Origin: an uncultured Bacteroidota bacterium | GTDB taxonomy: Bacteria; Bacteroidota; Bacteroidia; Chitinophagales; Chitinophagaceae | Reading direction: 5' to 3' | DNA length: 32,107 nucleotides | Assembly: GCA_903881585.1 (NCBI GenBank) | Contig: CAIRTW010000096.1 | Coordinates: 1 to 32,107, forward strand | Shown here: positions 1,642-27,974 of the stretch, in pieces | Position numbering within the stretch: the stretch's first letter is position 1 | Layout of the letters: each line of letters begins with the position of its first letter | Position numbers and translations under genes: made by a program | The notes under the pieces: model-generated | What the model saw: only the letters and a program-made list of their open reading frames with translations | The model's database searches: none | What the model was told of the DNA's origin: nothing

Positions 1642-2691
1642 CTACTCTTCCTCATCAAAGTATATCTTATAAAAGCTCTTCCCCATCCGCTCATCATAGC
1701 CCTTTTCTATCAGGCTTTTATCCCCATGTATGTAAACATGAAAATTCTTATCCAGCTTTAGAACGCTCTTAAATACCCGCGCCTGTTTCTTCACGGCCAG
1801 CGTAGAGATATCAAACCTGTCCGGTATTTCCAGGTCATTCATCTCGGCATAGCTTGTCTCAAATTTCCGGAACGCCTTTATCATGCCGCTGTCGTCAAAA
1901 ACCTCTTTCTCAAACGACTTCTTATCAAACGACTCATTGGCCCGGAAATACTCCACAGACTTATTGAGCAGGTCTATCTGGTCCGTCTTCGCTATGTCAT
2001 ATTCCTCCGGCAGTTGCTTGGCTATAAACTGCTTGGCCACGTTCATGAACTGATTGGTCTGGAAATATTCATTCGCCTGCGGGGCCACACTCAAAAAAGT
2101 CTCTCGCCAGAACACCGCTTCCTCTCCCCTGCTTGCACTGTCGTATATCAGCACATCAAACCCCTGCTCGGCATTGGTGGGCAGCACCAGGCAGGCCTTG
2201 TCATACTTGGCTACATCCACACCTTCGCGCACGGTCAGTGCAAATTCGCTGGCATCCATTGCAAGGTCTATAAAGTGGCTCTTGGTCTCTGTTTTGTATA
2301 TCCCTATCGCATCCACAAAAGCTCCGTCCACCAGGCAGTTCTCATAGTAGCATACATATAGTTCGCCCGTTTTTATTTTGGGGTGCACGGTGCTCTCATA
2401 CAGATGTTTCGCTATGTTCACCGAGTTCTTGTGAAAGGTTGCCCCTTCAGCCAGCGTCTCCAGGCAATAATTATACACCTCATTGTAATCCAGCGACGAC
2501 AAATGATAGAACGAGTATCTGTCCAGCTCGGAACTAAACTTCGCCAGGAAAGAATCTTTGATGATGCGCAGGTCATCATCTCCCAGTTGCAGCGGCTTTT
2601 TTGATGTCACCAGGTCTTGCCCGTTTCCTTTATTACCTATATAGTGTACAGATACCTTCTGCAACACAGCCTCACTCAAACTCATTTGCAT
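1642..2691 (-). CDS. Nucleoid-associated protein, NdpA/YejK (NA37) family
   Basis: This 349-residue cytoplasmic protein resembles the 37-kDa nucleoid-associated family (NdpA/YejK). Family features visible here are the short N-terminal strand with Val-His-Tyr-Ile-Gly-Asn-Lys, the helical Phe-Tyr-His-Leu region near residue 60, the Gly-Glu-Leu-Tyr-Val-Cys-Tyr strand near 120, and a C-terminal half rich in Lys and Glu ending in Asp-Glu-Glu-Glu. In gammaproteobacteria these proteins bind the nucleoid; their exact role is poorly defined, and Bacteroidota versions often sit near accessory genes. Two in-frame ATGs lie 6 nt apart (2691 and 2685) and I cannot choose between them. The gene reads against the two lipoprotein genes on its 3' side. 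Confidence 0.85.
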   Translation of the reverse strand: MQMSLSEAVLQKVSVHYIGNKGNGQDLVTSKKPLQLGDDDLRIIKDSFLAKFSSELDRYSFYHLSSLDYNEVYNYCLETLAEGATFHKNSVNIAKHLYESTVHPKIKTGELYVCYYENCLVDGAFVDAIGIYKTETKSHFIDLAMDASEFALTVREGVDVAKYDKACLVLPTNAEQGFDVLIYDSASRGEEAVFWRETFLSVAPQANEYFQTNQFMNVAKQFIAKQLPEEYDIAKTDQIDLLNKSVEYFRANESFDKKSFEKEVFDDSGMIKAFRKFETSYAEMNDLEIPDRFDISTLAVKKQARVFKSVLKLDKNFHVYIHGDKSLIEKGYDERMGKSFYKIYFDEEE

Positions 2692-2775
2692 ATGCTTCGC
2701 TTATTGCTGTAAAGATATTTTCTTCCCGTAGCCGTGATGCTTTTTTCTTAATAATTATCTAATCGCAATCTTTTT

Positions 2776-2793
2776 ATAAGCAGCCTTGCTTAT
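2776..2793. promoter_or_regulatory. 7-bp perfect dyad in divergent intergenic region
   Basis: ATAAGCA and TGCTTAT (2776-2782 and 2787-2793) form a perfect dyad around a 4-nt spacer. It lies in the 272-nt AT-rich gap between the divergent NdpA-type gene and the OmpA gene. It could be an operator for either gene or a small hairpin; nothing else in the gap besides the promoter box at 2931 looks like a feature. Confidence 0.3.
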
Positions 2794-2930
2794 CATTGTC
2801 ATCCATCTGCACGACTGTTTTCAACCTAACAACAACATATCATATATAAATTTAACCACGAAGACCACACAATTAACGATTATATAAAAAACACGTTCGT
2901 AAATAGAATAAGGTTTTTTAAAAATATTGT

Positions 2931-2938
2931 TAGTTTTG
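2931..2938 (+). promoter_or_regulatory. Bacteroidota -7 promoter box (TAGTTTTG)
   Basis: TAGTTTTG matches the TAnnTTTG element used by the Bacteroidota primary sigma factor. A T-run at 2914-2919 may stand for the -33 element. It lies 25 nt before the ATG of the OmpA gene, leaving a short leader. Confidence 0.6.
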
Positions 2939-2963
2939 TACTCCCCCACAATAAAGTACAGTT

Positions 2964-4805
2964 ATGAAAAACATATTTACATTCATTTTGCTATTAACTG
3001 TCTTAAAAGGCTATAGCCAGGAAGCTGATACGGCTGAAATATATTTTGATTACAACGTCGCCAGGTTCAGTGACGCATCTTCAAGACGGCTGGACAGTTT
3101 CCGGTTTGCCCGGATATTGGTTCCCGGCCACAAAACTACTGTATATGGCTACACAGACTGTAAAGGCACCGACGACTACAACAAACAGCTTTCCATAGCC
3201 CGTGCAAAAAATGTGAAGAATTATCTCGTATCGCTTGGCCTTGATGAGCACGATATTGTGCACTGTGAAGGAAAGGGCAAAGCCCGCACGGACCAGGAAC
3301 AAGATAAAGACAGAAAAGTGCTTATCATCATGGAGCGCGCACCCTCTAAGTATGCAAAAGCAAAAGAAGCAGCCGCGGCTAAGGAAGCCGTTGCTAACGC
3401 AACAAAATCCAAAACAAAAACACCAAAAACCGATGCTTTAAACCCTGCAGATTCGACTGGCATGGCCGGGAAAGTTACTAAGCCGGCAAAGACGAAAACG
3501 CCAAAAGCCGGCACGCAAAGCCCGGCTGACTCGGCTGCAATGGCTGTTAAAACGGCAAAAACAAAAACACCGAAAACAGGCACACTAAGCCCAACTGACT
3601 CTGCTGCGACGGCTGTTAAAACGGCAAAAACAAAAACACCGAAAACAGGCACACTAAGCCCGGCAGACTCTGCTGCAATGGCAGCTAAAAAGGCAAGCAG
3701 AGATTCTGCGGCCATGGCCGCGAAAGCTGCAAAAAAAGCAAACGCAGACGCTGCTGCCCTGGCTGCAAAAGCTGCTAAAAAAACAAGCGCAGATTCTGCT
3801 GCTCTGGCCGCAAAAGCTGCTAAAAAAGCAAGCGTAGACGCTGCAATGGCTGCAAAAGCCGCAAAAAAAGCAAGCGCAGATTCTGCTGCCATGGCCGCGA
3901 AAGCTGCTAAAAAGGCAAACGCGGACGCTGCACTGGCTGCAAAAGCCGCAAAAAAAGCAAGCGCGGACTCTGCTGCAATGGCGGCTAAAATGGCAAAACC
4001 CACAACACCCAAAGCCGGTGGCACCCACCCTGCAGACTCTACAGGGATGGCCAAGACCACAAAACCTAAGAACCCCAAAACAGGCTCCCATAACACGTCC
4101 GATTCAACTGGTAAAATTGCTAAAACCAAAGATCCAAAATCGGATGGATCTAAACCAGGGACGCAAACCAGCACAGGAACATCCACTGGAAATGCTGCAG
4201 CCGATGGAACAGCACCGGTGCCGCTTGTACTTGGTGAAAACATGGAAAACACCGCTGCCGCACCAGTAGACGGAACTGCAAACACAGCTGGCACTCAGCC
4301 GCCCGTTGCTGCGGGCACGGTTGTGCACCCAAAAATACCTGCGCCAGAGGCCATTGTTCCACTACCAAAAGATGCTAAAGTAAAGCGCAAGGCCGAAAAG
4401 AACATAGCCACTCTTGATCCGAAAAACCTGATCATCGGCGAAATAATCCCGCTTAACAATATCTACTTCGCGCCCGCATCCAATGAAATGCTGCGCCAAT
4501 CAGAGCCATCTCTGGAGTTATTATTCAAATTCCTCAAAACCAATACGAACCTCGCTGTGGAGATTCAGGGCCGTATCTGTTGTCTTAACCCAATTGATGG
4601 CACCGATGAGCCTGATGGCAACGGCAGCACACGGTCAACGGCAAGGGCAAAAAATATTTACGATTACCTGGTTACAAAAGGCATCGAAAAGAGCCGTCTC
4701 AGCTATTCAGGATTGGGTAACACAAAGCCATCGGTTTACCCCGAGAAAACAGAATTCGACCGCGACCTCAACCGCAGGGCTACCATGAAGATCATCTACA
4801 AGTAG
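2964..4805 (+). CDS. Double OmpA-domain protein with Lys/Ala repeat linker
   Basis: This 613-residue exported protein has an OmpA-like domain at each end. Residues 1-18 are a signal peptide. The first OmpA-type domain (about 25-125) has the Ile-Tyr-Phe-Asp-Tyr-Asn start, a Gly-Tyr-Thr-Asp turn and an Ala-Arg-Ala-Lys-Asn helix. Residues 130-420 are a low-complexity linker of Lys/Ala/Ser/Thr/Pro repeats. The second OmpA domain (about 485-613) has Asn-Ile-Tyr-Phe, Thr-Ala-Arg-Ala-Lys-Asn-Ile and an Asn-Arg-Arg-Ala end. OmpA domains normally hold peptidoglycan, so the protein may bind it at two points, with the basic linker spanning the periplasm or touching the acidic wall or LPS; that role is inference. 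The first domain lacks the usual Arg-Arg end (it has Asp-Arg-Lys) and the second has an unusual Cys-Cys pair. It is transcribed from its own promoter at 2931. Confidence 0.85.
   Translation: MKNIFTFILLLTVLKGYSQEADTAEIYFDYNVARFSDASSRRLDSFRFARILVPGHKTTVYGYTDCKGTDDYNKQLSIARAKNVKNYLVSLGLDEHDIVHCEGKGKARTDQEQDKDRKVLIIMERAPSKYAKAKEAAAAKEAVANATKSKTKTPKTDALNPADSTGMAGKVTKPAKTKTPKAGTQSPADSAAMAVKTAKTKTPKTGTLSPTDSAATAVKTAKTKTPKTGTLSPADSAAMAAKKASRDSAAMAAKAAKKANADAAALAAKAAKKTSADSAALAAKAAKKASVDAAMAAKAAKKASADSAAMAAKAAKKANADAALAAKAAKKASADSAAMAAKMAKPTTPKAGGTHPADSTGMAKTTKPKNPKTGSHNTSDSTGKIAKTKDPKSDGSKPGTQTSTGTSTGNAAADGTAPVPLVLGENMENTAAAPVDGTANTAGTQPPVAAGTVVHPKIPAPEAIVPLPKDAKVKRKAEKNIATLDPKNLIIGEIIPLNNIYFAPASNEMLRQSEPSLELLFKFLKTNTNLAVEIQGRICCLNPIDGTDEPDGNGSTRSTARAKNIYDYLVTKGIEKSRLSYSGLGNTKPSVYPEKTEFDRDLNRRATMKIIYK
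3542..3990. repeat. In-frame tandem repeats coding the Lys/Ala linker
   Basis: Two repeat types are nested. The outer type is about 23 codons (69 bp), with a Lys-Thr-Lys-Thr-Pro-Lys core followed by Ser-Pro-Ala-Asp-Ser-Ala; the copies starting at 3542 and 3611 are identical over about 50 bases, which points to recent duplication. The inner type (about 3670-3990) is 14-15 codons, Ala-Asp-Ser-Ala-Ala-Met-Ala-Ala-Lys-Ala-Ala-Lys-Lys-Ala-Ser, in about seven diverged copies. All unit lengths are multiples of three, so copy number can change without breaking the frame. Confidence 0.85.
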
Positions 4806-10378: not shown

Positions 10379-10519
10379 AGTTTTACTCTATTAAGTTAAT
10401 AATCAATTAAAATGTGCATAGATTAAAGTACTTTAATAAATATTTTGAAAGTTAGCATTATTTTCTTCTGCAAGCACAGGAGCATTTCCTCATTTCCACA
10501 ATTCAATTACTTTTATAAA

Positions 10520-11881
10520 ATGAAACTACGCCTGCTCACCATTATTACCTGCCTCGGCATATGCAATGCCCACGCGCAGGACTCGCTGCAAATGCGCAAA
10601 ATAGCCGATGAAATACTCCTGCACGGCACCTGCTACGAAAACCTGCGGGTACTCTGCAAAACCGTTGGTCACCGCATCAGTGGCTCACCTGAGGCCGCCA
10701 AAGCCGTCACCTGGGGCGAGAAAAGCATGAAGGAAGCCGGGGCCGACAAAGTATGGCTACAGGCTGCCGATGTCCCCTATTGGTGGCGCGGTAAAGAGAG
10801 CCTGTACCTGAAAATGGGCAAAGAATATAAAAAAGTAACAGCGCTCTCTCTTGGCAATAGCCAGGGCACAGGCGGCAAAACCCTGGAAGCGCCTATAGTA
10901 ATGGTACACAGCTTTGATGAGTTCAACGCCTTGCCCGACAGCAAAGTAAAGGGCAAGATCATATTTTTCGATTACCGCTTTCGCCAGGATTTCGTCTTCA
11001 CCTTTCAGGGCTATGGTGATGCGGTGAAGTATCGCTGGGCCAGCCCAAGTGTAGCTGCGAAGAAAGGCGCTGCGGCGGTTATCATCCGCTCTACGTCCAC
11101 CGGCAAAGACGATTTCCCACACACCGGCGGCATGCACTACAACGACTCATTTGCCAAAATACCCGAAATGTCCCTAGGTAACATAACCGCCGACCAACTG
11201 GAGCAAGCCTGCGAAAAAGGCACCGCAACCGCAAAAATGACCTCTGAGTGCCGCATGATACCAACGCTGGTCCACTCCTATAATGTAATAGGTGAAATAA
11301 CCGGCTCGGAAACACCAGAAAAGATCATCACCGTTGGCGGCCACCTCGACTCCTGGGACGTAGGCGAAGGTGCTACCGACGATGGCGCTGGCTGCGTGCA
11401 ATCCATCGAGATCATCCGCGCATTCAAAGCCTTGGGGTTACGGCCTAAGTGCACCGTAAGAGCAGTATTGTTTATGAACGAAGAGAACGGCGACAAAGGC
11501 GGCGAAGCCTATGCCGACTCTGCAAAGTCGAAACATGAGCAGCATGTACTGGCCATAGAGAGCGATGCGGGCGGCTTCTCCCCTCGCGGGATAGGACTGG
11601 AAATGCCCGAATCGCAGAAACAAGCCATCCTCAAATACAAAAGCCTCTTCCTCGACTATGGTGTCTATGATTTTTCGCGCGAAGAAGGCGGCACCGACAT
11701 TGGCCCTTTGAAGAAGCAGCTCAACGTACCCCTGGCCGGCCTTATGCCTGACTCCCAACGCTACTTCGACCTCCACCATACCGATAACGACACATTCGAA
11801 CAAGTAAACCACCGCGAACTGAAACTCGGTGCCGCAGTAATGGCACAACTCATATACCTCGTCAGCGAACACGGTATGTAA
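10520..11881 (+). CDS. M28 family zinc peptidase, secreted (carboxypeptidase Q-like)
   Basis: This 453-residue peptidase starts with a cleavable signal peptide (1-20, ending Ala-His-Ala-Gln). A protease-associated domain lies at about 120-245. The M28 catalytic residues are placed by motif: His275 and Asp277 in Gly-His-Leu-Asp-Ser-Trp-Asp, bridging Asp287 or 288 in Thr-Asp-Asp-Gly-Ala-Gly, the Glu321-Glu322 pair in Asn-Glu-Glu-Asn, Asp349 in Glu-Ser-Asp-Ala-Gly, and His419 or 420 near the end. The arrangement resembles plasma glutamate carboxypeptidase / carboxypeptidase Q, so dipeptide or C-terminal cleavage outside the cytoplasm is likely. I chose ATG 10520 because a TTG at 10445 adds a segment without signal-peptide character. 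It differs in anchoring from the lipidated M28 peptidase at 4993. Confidence 0.93.
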   Translation: MKLRLLTIITCLGICNAHAQDSLQMRKIADEILLHGTCYENLRVLCKTVGHRISGSPEAAKAVTWGEKSMKEAGADKVWLQAADVPYWWRGKESLYLKMGKEYKKVTALSLGNSQGTGGKTLEAPIVMVHSFDEFNALPDSKVKGKIIFFDYRFRQDFVFTFQGYGDAVKYRWASPSVAAKKGAAAVIIRSTSTGKDDFPHTGGMHYNDSFAKIPEMSLGNITADQLEQACEKGTATAKMTSECRMIPTLVHSYNVIGEITGSETPEKIITVGGHLDSWDVGEGATDDGAGCVQSIEIIRAFKALGLRPKCTVRAVLFMNEENGDKGGEAYADSAKSKHEQHVLAIESDAGGFSPRGIGLEMPESQKQAILKYKSLFLDYGVYDFSREEGGTDIGPLKKQLNVPLAGLMPDSQRYFDLHHTDNDTFEQVNHRELKLGAAVMAQLIYLVSEHGM

Positions 11882-11894
11882 AAGGTGAGCACGC

Positions 11895-12014
11895 AACACC
11901 TCCCTTCGTGTTTTTAGGAGGGGAGGTTGAAAAGCATAGCGAAGCAGTGCTTTTCAACTGGGGTGGTTGGCTCGCGCCCAGCAGATACCTCATTCCCGCT
12001 TTACGGCCCGAATG
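11895..12014 (+). repeat. Dispersed hairpin repeat, copy A
   Basis: About 120 bp, matching the reverse complement of 25368-25490. In order it holds hairpin 1 (7-bp arms 11898-11904 and 11921-11927), hairpin 2 (10-bp arms 11927-11936 and 11948-11957) with an inner GCGAAGC (11939-11945), a conserved block CTGGGGTGGTTGGCTCGC (11958-11975), a variable spacer of about 12 nt, and a second conserved block to 12014. It fills the gap after the M28 peptidase gene and runs toward the permease gene. Confidence 0.8.
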
Positions 12015-16167: not shown

Positions 16168-16323
16168 CAAATTCCAAATTGTAAATTCCAAAGTCAAAAA
16201 TACAAAATCCAAGGCCTGTATTTTGTATTAAAAGACAAATAAGAACAGTATTATTTGGCGTTTCTTCCATGAATTGTACTTAATATGTACCTTGGATTTT
16301 GGAATTTTAATTTTTGAAATTTG
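16168..16323. repeat. AT-rich imperfect inverted repeat before the thymidine kinase gene
   Basis: AAAATCCAAGG (16204-16214) pairs perfectly with CCTTGGATTTT (16290-16300). Both arms are embedded in degenerate AAATTCCAAA-type tracts (16168-16214 and 16290-16323) that continue the complementarity imperfectly. The right arm ends 6 nt before the tdk start codon. The same tract type recurs at 16899-17044 and 19339-19500. Confidence 0.6.
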
Positions 16324-16328
16324 GCAGG

Positions 16329-16892
16329 ATGTTTATAGAACCATTTCGTTCGGGCGCGAAGAGAGGATGGATGGAGGTCATCTGCGGCTGCATGTTCTCT
16401 GGCAAGACAGAGGAACTGATACGCAGACTGAAGCGTGTGCAGATAGCCGGGCAAAAGGTAGAGATCTTCAAACCCGCCATGGATGTGCGCTACGACCCGC
16501 TCGACATTGTATCTCATGACGCTCACAGGATACGCTCTACCCCTGTTGATAATTATTATAACATACTGCTGCTGGCATCTGATGTAGATGTGGTGGGTAT
16601 AGATGAGGCCCAGTTCTTCGACGAAGGGATCGTAGAAGTATTGGAGCAACTGATGCTGCGCGGCACACGGGTCATAGTGGCCGGCCTGGATATGGATTAT
16701 ATGGGCAAACCCTTTGGGCCTGTACCTGCACTGCTGGCCCGCGCCGAATTCATAACAAAACTCCATGCCATATGTGTAAAATGCGGCGACATTGCCAATT
16801 ACTCGTATCGCATACCCAAGATAGACGACCAGGTGCTTTTGGGTGAGAAGGACGTTTATGAGCCAAGATGCCGGAATTGCTATTATAAATAG
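16329..16892 (+). CDS. tdk: Thymidine kinase, type II
   Basis: This 187-residue cytoplasmic enzyme phosphorylates thymidine with ATP in the pyrimidine salvage pathway. The P-loop Gly-x-Met-Phe-Ser-Gly-Lys-Thr lies at 20-27, the Asp-Glu-Ala-Gln-Phe motif at 92-96 (catalytic Glu93), and the lasso region around Gly119-Leu-Asp-Met-Asp-Tyr. A structural zinc site is formed by Cys149, Cys152, Cys181 and Cys184. The length is normal. I chose ATG 16329, which has a GGCAGG just upstream; a TTG at 16314 lies inside the repeat arm. It is flanked on both sides by AT-rich inverted repeats, unlike most genes here. Confidence 0.96.
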
Positions 16893-16923
16893 TAAATCTC
16901 CAAAAACCAAAAAATGAAATTCC

Positions 16924-17041
16924 AAATTCCAAATTCCAAAAACCAAAAACCAATCCCGATAGCTATCAGCACCAGGTTCCAAGAATTAATCCTGCCCTGT
17001 TGTTCGCAAATTTGGAGTTTGGTTTTTGGAATTTGGAATTT
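16924..17041. repeat. Perfect 24-bp inverted repeat around a GATAGCTATC palindrome
   Basis: The 24-nt arms at 16924-16947 and 17018-17041 are exactly complementary (AAATTCCAAATTCC... against ...GGAATTTGGAATTT). The 70-nt loop carries CCCGATAGCTATC at 16955-16967. Similar tracts reach back to 16899. It lies between the tdk and tolC genes and ends 29 nt before the tolC promoter box. As RNA it would be a very stable stem and could end tdk transcription. Confidence 0.85.
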
Positions 17042-17070
17042 TTTTTAGATTTTCTACGGGCTCCAATCAT

Positions 17071-25367: not shown

Positions 25368-25490
25368 CATTGGGGGCTGTGAAACGCGAATGAGCTCCGT
25401 GCCCTATGCGAGCCAACCACCCCAGCTGAAAAACACCGCTTCGCTATGTTTTTCAGCATCCCCTCCTAAAAACAGGAGGGGAGGTGTTCC
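25368..25490 (-). repeat. Dispersed hairpin repeat, copy B
   Basis: This is the inverted copy of 11895-12014. Read on the minus strand it has the same order: hairpin 1 (8-bp CCCCTCCT/AGGAGGGG arms), hairpin 2 (10-bp arms, on plus 25426-25435 and 25447-25456) with inner GCGAAGC (plus 25438-25444), the conserved CTGGGGTGGTTGGCTCGC block, a variable spacer and the second conserved block. It fills most of the 268-nt gap between the small membrane gene and the 3' end of the penicillin-acylase gene. I see no protein in that gap. Confidence 0.8.
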
Positions 25491-25505
25491 GCGCCTACAT
25501 TTTTT

Positions 25506-27974
25506 TCATCTCTTACCAACATGCCACACATATTTTACAGAACTGTCACTCTGCTTGTCACTGTTTGGAAAAAAAGCCAGCTTATTATATTTCCCTTCTA
25601 CCCATTGTTGTAAGAAATCAGCATAGTACTTACTGCCGGGATTGCCTGACTGTCCGCCGGGATAAACCCCATAAGCCTCTATCTCCTTGCCCATTTGCAC
25701 GATCATGCGCCACGAAGGGCCATGGTCTCCTTTGGCTGCATTTATGGTATTGCCCCAGCCGCCTATTTTTAAGTGATCGTAGCTGAACGCGGGGAGTTTT
25801 GCGAGATGGGTTACGGATGTATTTTTTACTTTGTACCATTCGCTGCCACCAGCTTTTTTCAACTTATTAATGCTATCAACTACTACCCGATATGAAAAAC
25901 CAAATGGATCACTATCTACAGAAAATAAGTTCGATAATCTATCCGCCTGCATTAGCTGCATTGTTTTTTCCTGCAATGGGTAAAATGAATTTAACTCTTT
26001 ATTCCCTGAAACATACGATTGAGGAAGCACATCCTGCCAAATCATTATTGACAAAATATCCCACCAAATTTGATAAATAGTTGCCGCCTCACTTTCCACA
26101 GATAACTTATAGTTCCATTTACGCAGTTCATCCTGGTAATTATCCCAGTTAGCGGTATTATATATTGTTTTACGTTCTGTTAAATAATGGCGGCTCTTAA
26201 TTTTGTCAAGCATTATGGATAGTGTTCCCGCCGCCAATTCAGAATAAGTATCATTCTGCATGGTCTTCATATCCTCAATGGTTGCCTTCTGCATACCACT
26301 CAATAAATGATTTACCCGCCATGCCCGCAGGTTCACCCAGCCGCTATTGGTATAATTGTAAGGGTAAGTGCTGTCCGTAGTCACCTGGTTTGCAGAGCTT
26401 ACATAGCCCCGCGCGGGGTTCAGTACATGCGGGTTCTCGCGCATGGGTATAAGCTGGCCCCATAGCGTTGCGCTATCGCTGCCATTCATAACGAATCTGC
26501 CCTGATCTTTCCATTGGTTCACGAACTGCCCCTGGCCCCAAAGGGCTATGTTGCCAGCCCGGTCTGCATAGGCCATGTTTTGGGCAGGGCATTGAAAATT
26601 GAGGATGGCATCTACAAACTGGTTGTAATTCTGCGCCCTGTTCAGCATATATACCGCCAGCATCTCATTGGTGCCTCTATGCCCCATCCAGCACATGGCC
26701 AGTGGCTTTTTCAGGCCACCATCCTTTGCGTTTTGGGCTTCGTAGGTTACCGGCCCGTGTATAGTGTAGTCTATTGTATCTACCACATCAGGCTTGCCTT
26801 TTACTTTTATCACCTCTACCCTTTTGTTGAAATCCAGCTGCTTGCCGGCAAACCAGTATTTGTTCTTATTGTCGTCAACTGGCTTTATGAGGTAAAAGTC
26901 TTTTACGTCGCGATAGTTGTTGGTAAGGCCCCAGGTAAGGCTGTCATTAAAACCAATGATCACACCCGGCGCACCTGGCAAGGATGCCCCATAAACATTG
27001 ATATTTGGCGCCTGAAGCTGTACCTCATACCAAAGCGATGGCAGGTTGAGGCCAAGGTGAGGATCGTTGCAAAGAATTGCTGCACCGCTGGCGGTTCTGC
27101 TGCCACTGATGGCCCAGTTGTTGCTTCCCTTGCCATCCTCTTTCTTTTCCCCAAAGTCGGCTGCAACAAAGTGCGGGAACGCTATGCTGTCCGGTGGCGA
27201 AGCGGGTATGGCAAGCGAAGGTTTGTCAAACACAGTTCCGGCAGGTATGGCGGGTGTAGCGCCGGTGATACGCTCCGGGTAGAGCAGATCAAATTCTTCT
27301 TTAGGCAACCGATCCCGCAGGTAAGTTAGCGCCAGGTCATCTGTACCGCCGGTGAGATCATCGGCCATGTATTTCATCAGCAGGGCCGTTCTCAGGTTGG
27401 TCCATTTTTCAGGAGCAAAACCTATCAGTTTATACTCGATCGGATAATCCTTGAAAGACAGCGATGCTATATATAGGTTAATACCCTCGGTATAGGCATC
27501 CATCATAGCCTTGGTGCGCGGTTCTGCTTCCATCACCCTCAGCGAGTTCTCCGCGCCATACACCATGCCCTTTCTGCGCTGCTTGCGGTCATACTCAAGT
27601 GCCTTTTCGCCCACCACCTCACTCACGCGCCCACCGGCAGCCCGTGTTTCCATATCCATCTGCCAGAGCCGGAACGTGGCATGTATGTATCCTTCCAGCA
27701 CGTAGAGATCATGATCGTTATCAGCATGAATGTGTGGCACCAGCCGTTTATCGTACCATACGGTAGCATTACTATTCACGGGCAATTTAAGATCGGCAGA
27801 AAAGTTTTTGTTTACCGGCTCGGCATTTGCCCAGCAGCCATTCACGGGGTCCAGCAGGCGGCCTATGGCAGGCACACCCGGCTTAGGCGACCTGTCCAGC
27901 AGACAAACCACCACAGTAACGATAATTAATAAAACCCAACCCCAAATGGAGCGTTTGCTCTTATTTTGTTGCAT
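25506..27974 (-). CDS. Penicillin acylase family protein (S45 Ntn hydrolase)
   Basis: This 822-residue precursor belongs to the S45 penicillin-acylase family, which self-cleaves into alpha and beta chains and hydrolyses amide bonds in acyl-amino compounds such as beta-lactams or acyl-homoserine lactones. An N-terminal hydrophobic helix (10-26) works as signal or anchor. The autoprocessing site is Gly283-Ser284-Asn-Asn-Trp, making Ser284 the nucleophile of the beta chain; it is followed by Asn-Asp-Pro-His-Leu-Gly-Leu and Pro-Gly-Ala-Pro-Gly-Val-Ile-Ile-Gly-Phe-Asn, both family blocks. The length is typical. The substrate is not predictable. A dyad-rich leader precedes it and a dispersed repeat follows it. 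Confidence 0.93.
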   Translation of the reverse strand: MQQNKSKRSIWGWVLLIIVTVVVCLLDRSPKPGVPAIGRLLDPVNGCWANAEPVNKNFSADLKLPVNSNATVWYDKRLVPHIHADNDHDLYVLEGYIHATFRLWQMDMETRAAGGRVSEVVGEKALEYDRKQRRKGMVYGAENSLRVMEAEPRTKAMMDAYTEGINLYIASLSFKDYPIEYKLIGFAPEKWTNLRTALLMKYMADDLTGGTDDLALTYLRDRLPKEEFDLLYPERITGATPAIPAGTVFDKPSLAIPASPPDSIAFPHFVAADFGEKKEDGKGSNNWAISGSRTASGAAILCNDPHLGLNLPSLWYEVQLQAPNINVYGASLPGAPGVIIGFNDSLTWGLTNNYRDVKDFYLIKPVDDNKNKYWFAGKQLDFNKRVEVIKVKGKPDVVDTIDYTIHGPVTYEAQNAKDGGLKKPLAMCWMGHRGTNEMLAVYMLNRAQNYNQFVDAILNFQCPAQNMAYADRAGNIALWGQGQFVNQWKDQGRFVMNGSDSATLWGQLIPMRENPHVLNPARGYVSSANQVTTDSTYPYNYTNSGWVNLRAWRVNHLLSGMQKATIEDMKTMQNDTYSELAAGTLSIMLDKIKSRHYLTERKTIYNTANWDNYQDELRKWNYKLSVESEAATIYQIWWDILSIMIWQDVLPQSYVSGNKELNSFYPLQEKTMQLMQADRLSNLFSVDSDPFGFSYRVVVDSINKLKKAGGSEWYKVKNTSVTHLAKLPAFSYDHLKIGGWGNTINAAKGDHGPSWRMIVQMGKEIEAYGVYPGGQSGNPGSKYYADFLQQWVEGKYNKLAFFPNSDKQSDSSVKYVWHVGKR

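Follow-up and report, generated by a model that had tools for sequence, protein, structure and literature searches.

Mobile palindromic repeats of uncultured Chitinophagaceae and their association with small DUF559 nuclease genes

The non-coding DNA of bacteria commonly contains REP-like repeats and, to our knowledge, many of those outside the RAYT-linked families have no known enzyme. A 32,107-nt stretch of the genome of an uncultured member of the Chitinophagaceae (the window) carries two copies of a structured repeat in inverted orientation, which raises the question of what these copies are and what spreads them. The original prediction saw in them the logic of REP/BIME elements and named RAYT transposases as possible mobilizers, an interpretation that as a whole is partly supported by the analyses below. 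We assign a probability of roughly 0.6 to a different reading, in which the window copies are non-autonomous, REP/BIME-like mobile palindromes of ~120 bp and the genetic partner of their family is a small, stand-alone, Vsr-like DUF559 nuclease. That the element is a REP/BIME-like mobile palindrome is well supported, and the partnership is supported by adjacency across taxa; the predicted nuclease may be what mobilizes the element.

Structure of the element

The two copies, confirmed by direct reading and alignment, form the longest inverted repeat listed in the window (130 nt, 80% complementarity). Copy 1 (covariance-model match at 11886..12004, plus strand) starts 4 nt after the stop codon of an M28 peptidase gene (Pfam; 10478..11881, plus strand), and copy 2 (covariance-model match at 25379..25497, minus strand) directly follows a penicillin amidase gene (Pfam; 25506..27974, minus strand). 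Both are single elements, and both begin a few nucleotides past a stop codon. In copy 1, where all parts lie on the plus strand, the 5' side of an outer stem (AACACC, 11895..11900; sequence, folding and alignments) is followed by hairpin 1 (CCCTTCGT-GTTTTT-AGGAGGGG, 11902..11923; sequence, folding and alignment) and hairpin 2 (11926..11958; sequence, folding and pair counts), whose perfect 10-bp stem, with arms GTTGAAAAGC and GCTTTTCAAC at 11926-11935 and 11949-11958, is extended by an A-T and a T-G pair and whose loop holds GCGAAGC (11939-11945, from the sequence). Next come a conserved 3' core that includes the 3' side of the outer stem (GGGGTGGTTGGCTCGCG, 11960..11976; sequence and flank profile) and a variable spacer with a second conserved block (..GCAGATACCTCATT.., 11977..11995; flank profile). 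Copy 2 has the same parts in the same order on the minus strand: hairpin 1 (CCCCTCCT-GTTTTT-AGGAGGGG, 25460..25481; sequence and folding), hairpin 2 (25425..25457; sequence, folding and pair counts) with arms GCTGAAAAAC and GTTTTTCAGC at 25457-25448 and 25434-25425 and GCGAAGC at 25438-25444, and the conserved 3' core (25407..25423; sequence and flank profile). Hairpin 1, the 10-bp hairpin 2, the GCGAAGC loop and GGGGTGGTTGGCTCGC are thus common to both. DNA folding of the element strand places the two hairpins of each copy within the outer stem (AACACC with GGTGGTT, one bulge; z = -2.6 and -4.4).

The original prediction described this arrangement correctly, including the GCGAAGC in both loops and the compensation in hairpin 2, where T-A in copy 1 corresponds to C-G in copy 2 and G-C to A-T, with both stems perfect over 10 bp. 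It left unmentioned that hairpin 1 of copy 1 (CCCTTCGT/AGGAGGGG) contains an uncompensated G-G mismatch along with a T-G pair.

Flank profiles of 61 and 66 copies delimit a conserved span of ~120 bp, in which conservation begins ~16 nt before ACACC (AAAATGAG..GCG) and fades ~36 nt past the start of GGGG (CTCATT), with AATGAG..CTCATT ends in part of the copies. Across the family hairpin 1 hardly varies, and hairpin 2, although hypervariable, nearly always keeps its two arms complementary. In the window's own genome (G000; 4.85 Mb in 376 contigs) hairpin 2 comes as type A (GAAAAGCAT-AGCGAAGC-), carried by both window copies, type B (GACCGGTC-GCTTGC-like, with most loops being GCTTGC or a variant) and type C (GGCTGAGGCGTATGCCGAA); GCGAAGC, famed as a mini-hairpin, is limited there to type A. 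The family is mosaic, with extra hairpins inserted between CCTCC and TGTTTTTAGG or after TTTTTAGG, and reduced tandem units that lack hairpin 1 also occur. Copies stand tail to tail in G374, G002 and G217, head to head in G011, and in tandem arrays in G006 and G012.

One and the same repeated IS-like end interrupts three copies at the edge of the hairpin 1 loop, between CCTCC and TGTTTTTAGG (L014 1-112, L015 from 1569 onward, and L038, corresponding to both ends of contig C29 and an end of C26 in G000); the contigs end shortly beyond. Another small hairpin module (CCGTCCGAACGGCTTCAGCCGGGCGGGC and variants) occupies the same hairpin 1 site in several copies (L012, L013 2682-2814, L161, L162, L165). 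Elsewhere in the window, a coding region at 3387-4060 holds tandem repeats of 69-87 nt (Lys/Ala-rich by eye), and a gene is surrounded by low-complexity inverted repeats of the AAATTCCAAA type at 16169-17046.

Copy number, covariation and placement

A DNA search of the window's own genome returned 52 matches, and a covariance model built from 27 copies returned 55 at E<=1 and 52 at E<=0.01; in some cases two matches are the halves of a single element, or a single element appears at two contig ends, and we estimate ~50 copies. The window copies are therefore not the only two. Among 20 genomes searched with the model (own included), elements occur in 10 of the 13 from the same genus, or 9 of the 12 relatives, and the seven from other families have no match at E<=0.01. 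Exact matches to the core pattern in named records amount to 20 stretches from five uncultured Chitinophagaceae/Bacteroidetes assemblies. A looser pattern (AGGAGGGG, a gap, GGGGTGGT) is present in 19 of 395 genomes of the class (own included), several of them with single, possibly chance, matches, compared with 4 for the reversed pattern; G373, G374, G626 and G675 carry 6 to 26 matches apiece, and their hairpin 2 sequences are of several kinds. A broader search with the model, in which no more than 12 candidates were scored in each of 298 genomes of the order, gives weak grounds for inferring absence. The element has no match in Rfam at gathering thresholds.

To quantify covariation, pairs were counted on alignments split by hairpin 2 type (10 type B and 16 type A copies). 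Both sides have changed in 5 of 9 hairpin 2 pairs in type B (14 cells, compared with 4.3 in shuffles) and in 6 of 12 pairs in type A (21 cells, compared with 7.0), and 96-97% of the hairpin 2 cells remain paired. Every shuffled and slid control has a lower covariation score (maximum 0.045 compared with 0.180 observed, and maximum 0.107 compared with 0.203); the number of double-change pairs is reached by 59 of 500 shuffles for type B and 9 of 500 for type A, and the number of pair types is not above the shuffles, most of which reach it. No pair of hairpin 1 or the outer stem changed on both sides in the same alignments. The expectation of many, mostly intergenic copies with further covarying hairpin 2 pairs is supported, together with the REP/BIME-like character of a multi-copy, structured and mobile family. 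Uncompensated stem changes, which the original prediction would have counted against its reading, do occur, but they are rare, at 3.6% of hairpin 2 cells in type B and 3.1% in type A.

Placement was assessed with a simple ORF finder for 68 copies from G000 and G003, of which 12 were too close to the border of the retrieved sequence to be classified. Of the 56 classified copies, 54 lie outside ORFs of at least 200 aa and two overlap one; 35 stand between tandem genes (18 in one direction, 17 in the other), 14 have convergent neighbours and 4 divergent ones, and the context of one is undetermined. An empty site for copy 2 is found in G003, where flanks 84% and 81% identical to those of G000 enclose 30 bp rather than 178 bp; at this one site compared, no target duplication is clear. 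By eye, all 19 genus relatives lack an element within 260 bp past the stop codon of the penicillin amidase orthologue, and 18 of 19 lack one within 260 bp past the M28 peptidase orthologue, the exception (G022) having one at another offset. A different palindrome, GTAG..CTAC, follows the M28 peptidase orthologue in G003, G027 and G022. A second palindrome family (GTAGAGACGCAATGCATTGCGTCTCTAC, with a GTAG foot at both ends; L192, L193, L196) lies downstream of M28 peptidase, the intergenic region that copy 1 occupies. Translations at five close-copy loci of G000 and G003 revealed, by eye, no transposase between copies.

RAYT and DUF559 genes near the elements

Membership in a RAYT system, as the original prediction suggested, finds no support in the window's own genome, where all six Y1_Tnp matches are free of elements for 1.5 kb or as far as the contig reaches; two elements on contig C54 lie ~4.6 kb from one of them. 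The RAYTs L034 and L035 of this genome carry motifs (NHMH/NHLH, YIHNNP/YIHDNP) that resemble the ones the available portion of PMC6006769 gives for subclass 2.6, and are flanked by their own, other hairpins. The subclass 1.2-like Y1 genes have no element near them at the loci examined.

We extended the search over relatives to ~58 RAYT-type loci in two sets of 30 and 28, some of which are fragments of one gene or weak matches. In the first set, L250 (G002) has a plus and a minus element, one on either side, within ~100 bp, and L249 and L251 each have an element ~1.1 kb away; in the second, L296 (G217) has a tail-to-tail pair ~140 bp away and others have elements at ~0.9 kb or more. No other RAYT/Y1 locus fetched has an element within 300 bp, some of the stretches ending at contig ends. 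L250 keeps its lineage's own TTTCGGATT..AATCCGAAA hairpins nearer to the gene than the elements, and this own-hairpin lineage also occurs in L034, L232 and L233 without any element. In L082, paired elements whose two hairpin 2 sequences nearly match those around L250 occur without a RAYT, which fits nesting, and we read the L250 RAYT as nested within an element pair.

The RAYT lineage in question is flanked by TTTCGGATT..AATCCGAAA and GGGGATT..AATCCCC hairpins (L034 1186-1410 and 1986-2038; L250 1422-1475 and 2050-2100), which are likely the cognate repeat of the subclass 2.6-like RAYT. At L339 1057-1579 (G006, contig C51), two partial RAYT copies 337 bp apart adjoin a whole RAYT gene. In G007, an element is directly adjoined by an endonuclease gene (L251 ~2430-3090, minus strand; by eye) that appears HNH-like from its motif.

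A different gene emerges from the pairs of G374, where one of five tail-to-tail pairs listed has a 424-bp spacer that holds a DUF559 gene (PF04480). We sought PF04480 in 18 genomes picked for element content or near kinship and obtained 41 matches in 14 genomes. Those in ORFs of 644-1272 aa and weak matches were left out (L342-L345, L347, L356, L363, L369), leaving 33 short DUF559 genes that still include the broken or short L362, L368, L379 and L381. By script, 11 of the 33 (L346, L348-L351, L353, L354, L361, L365, L375, L378) have an element no more than 200 bp from the domain or the stop codon, with hairpin 2 missing in L350 and L361; at L364 the element is at 627 bp. Elements are arranged plus upstream and minus downstream of the gene in L350 (G675), L353 (G374), L354 (G338) and L378 (G022) by script, and in L349, L375 and L371 by eye. 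A tail-to-tail pair stands on each side of L346, orientations are mixed at L348 and L365, L351 has copies upstream only, and at L370 the elements face the opposite way. The protein of L378 is letter-identical to that of L055 (record CANJQU010000074.1, same genus as the window), and its gene is flanked by the window's own subfamily, including a type A hairpin 2.

In a tree of 23 DUF559 proteins, the 11 genes given an element-flanked label all fall in one group of 12 (fork support 87/85), and the flank label changes twice, compared with a mean of 7.9 in shuffles, none of 500 being as low; labels were set by eye among the flanks listed, L370 being labelled though outside the script's 11 and L354, one of those 11, being absent from the tree. 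Genes elsewhere on the tree are mostly beside other C/G palindromes. These include L357 of the window's own genome, whose only other DUF559 match lies in a 644-aa ORF and which has no DUF559 gene between inverted element copies. At E<=0.001 no DUF559 match was obtained in three element-bearing genomes, G003 (30 element matches), G012 (29) and G011 (9), so that, with only an off-clade gene in G000, the partner can be absent.

A hairpin with a C-rich and a G-rich arm lies within 300 bp of 27 of the 33 Bacteroidia DUF559 genes. The same test is positive at 1 of 19 loci for each of the two orthologue sets (both hits being elements of this family), 2 of 28 RAYT loci and 1 of 18 other Y1 loci (controls reduced from 20, 20, 30 and 21 by short flanks of <300 bp or no placed gene; the 33 DUF559 loci are unfiltered). 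The difference from the two orthologue sets has a Fisher p of ~1e-11, to be read with the fact that the hairpin definition and the 300-bp limit were picked after the flanks had been seen.

Beyond the Bacteroidia, a tblastn search of a plasmid collection with the G022 protein yielded 42 records with DUF559. From these, 19 loci were chosen by species (Azospirillum, Sinorhizobium, Sphingomonas, Methylobacterium, Shinella, Novosphingobium, Sphingobium, Qipengyuania, Photobacterium, Picosynechococcus, Synechocystis, Pseudanabaena and Deinococcus; one, L404, lies inside a large ORF). In these three other phyla, a C-arm/G-arm hairpin lies within 300 bp of 18 of the 19 genes, 11 of which have one on either side, and one (L403, Novosphingobium) has none; the background is 94 of 1240 overlapping windows (7.6%) in ten longer loci. 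A further locus outside this count, L407 of Neisseria gonorrhoeae, has one hairpin 255 bp downstream. The palindromes of the plasmid collection differ from the window's element and have the C-arm/G-arm design in common with it. The 4.9-kb gene at L404 6864-11729, part of a BREX cluster in Pseudanabaena galeata, includes a DUF559 segment that has C/G palindromes both within it and in its surroundings. At L392 1177-1587, on a Sphingomonas plasmid, a DUF559 gene separates sufB from sufC, which looks like an insertion into the suf operon.

A profile of the 23 DUF559 proteins matches PDB entries 3hrl, an endonuclease-like protein (E 7.8e-33), and 3r3p, a mobile intron protein (E 3.2e-6) that we take to be I-Bth0305I, of Vsr fold. 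Invariant residues include D59, E70, D72, G73 and H76 (numbering of the first protein); single-sequence structure prediction (mean pLDDT 49.8) was too poor for use. The likeness to 3r3p consists in the profile relation and in a role in mobility, although 3r3p presumably resides in an intron, unlike a DUF559 gene between palindromic repeats. In Caulobacter, the DUF559 protein VsrA is termed Vsr-like, and the SOS response of cells without the methyltransferase ScmA depends on it, which suggests that VsrA likely cuts DNA (PMC12907096, available in part). As described in that portion, VsrA shares the DUF559 domain and Vsr-like nature with the proteins studied here but is treated as a mismatch-repair enzyme, and palindromes next to its gene are not mentioned there. 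A literature search, with subscription papers mostly outside its reach, returned no paper linking DUF559 with repeats.

Proposed mechanism, alternatives and significance

Among known systems, the family resembles REP/BIME with TnpA-REP (RAYT, including the Bacteroidetes subclass 2.6; PMC6006769, available in part) in its many intergenic palindromes, in occurring as singles and, as in BIMEs, in inverted pairs with short spacers in relatives (G374, G002, G217), in its mosaicism and covarying stems, and in flanking a small nuclease gene. It differs in that the element is ~120 bp rather than a 20-40 bp unit, with two side-by-side hairpins in an outer stem, hypervariable hairpin 2 and no GTAG/CGTC foot, and in that its partner by adjacency is a Vsr-like DUF559 nuclease rather than an HUH/Y1 enzyme. 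The GTAG/CGTC palindromic repeats (PMC3733652, available in part) are likewise short stem-loops found as singles and as head-head and tail-tail dimers, with complementary stem changes among subfamilies; our element is about three to six times longer, and neither the consensus of 27 copies nor the flank profiles of 61 and 66 copies show a conserved foot of this kind. Like MITEs, the elements are non-autonomous and short, with inverted ends (AATGAG..CTCATT) in part of the copies and gene-holding pairs in relatives, but a hairpin array replaces simple terminal repeats and no clear target duplication is seen at the one empty site compared. Integron attC sites had been considered from sequence alone and were dropped.

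Copy number, predicted structure, covariation, mosaicism, the empty site and DUF559 adjacency are observations, and the repeated flanking of DUF559 genes by relatives of the element points to this enzyme, in place of the usual REP transposase, as the probable agent of spread; nuclease action and causality are inferences. The nuclease may recognize extruded hairpins and nick or break DNA there, and repair could then copy the element to new intergenic places, either by itself, in a tail-to-tail pair or together with the enclosed gene. A Vsr-like enzyme might also act at stem mismatches, with one arm templating the other, which would explain how hairpin 2 changes yet stays paired. L250 and the element-bearing genomes without a detected DUF559 stand against a simple one-to-one rule.

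The alternatives differ in what they make of the same loci. Were the elements ordinary REP/BIMEs whose hairpins a subclass 2.6 HUH/Y1 transposase (TnpA-REP) recognizes and spreads, the RAYT between two elements at L250, the pair ~140 bp from a RAYT at L296 and the presence of subclass 2.6-like RAYTs in the genome would be accounted for, and atypical hairpins are described beside Bacteroidetes subclass 2.6 genes in the available part of PMC6006769. We nonetheless judge this unlikely, given the lack of elements within 300 bp at every other RAYT/Y1 locus fetched (some cut by contig ends), the nearer hairpins that the L250 lineage also has in element-free loci, the RAYT-free pairs of L082, and the missing GTAG or CGTC foot. 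Because one RAYT (L250) also lies between two elements, element pairs may simply be insertion hot spots, which weighs against the DUF559 partnership. A possibility somewhat less unlikely than the RAYT system is that DUF559 is a homing-type parasite of pre-existing palindromes that spread by other means, inserting where it cuts as other sequences insert at the hairpin 1 loop. Genomes with elements and no detected DUF559, the IS-like end (L014, L015, L038) and RAYT (L250) found in elements, and the profile match to the mobile-intron endonuclease 3r3p all agree with such a parasite; however, the flanking repeat type tracks the DUF559 tree, and other DUF559 genes lie beside different C/G palindromes, in four phyla in all, which looks like an own set of ends and not one shared target.

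It is very improbable that the elements are instead cis-acting RNA structures (3' ends, mRNA stabilizers or terminators) selected at each site. Covariation, the start of both window copies a few nucleotides past a stop codon and the scarcity of copies between divergent genes (4 compared with 14 convergent) could be read in that way, but copies between tandem genes show no orientation bias (18 compared with 17), all 19 relatives lack an element within 260 bp of the orthologous stop codon at the copy 2 site, Rfam gives no match at gathering thresholds, and several copies contain other insertions.

Returning to the DUF559 partnership, we advance tentatively, and at rather less than even odds, a broader proposal: DUF559 proteins may be the enzymes of a separate, widespread class of REP-like palindromes with C-rich and G-rich arms in Bacteroidota, Pseudomonadota, Cyanobacteriota and Deinococcota, a Vsr-type nuclease taking the place of the HUH transposase. 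Nicking at mismatches would keep drifting stems paired, so that the mobility machinery, and not selection on RNA, would make the compensatory changes.

Pfam lists DUF559 as a family "of unknown function"; should the link prove right, the repeat and DUF559 would each gain a partner. The repeat would then have a testable route of spread, and its paired yet hypervariable hairpins would be explained without a conserved RNA. The link would also carry a warning, in that covariation in repeats can arise from a DNA-repair or mobility mechanism.
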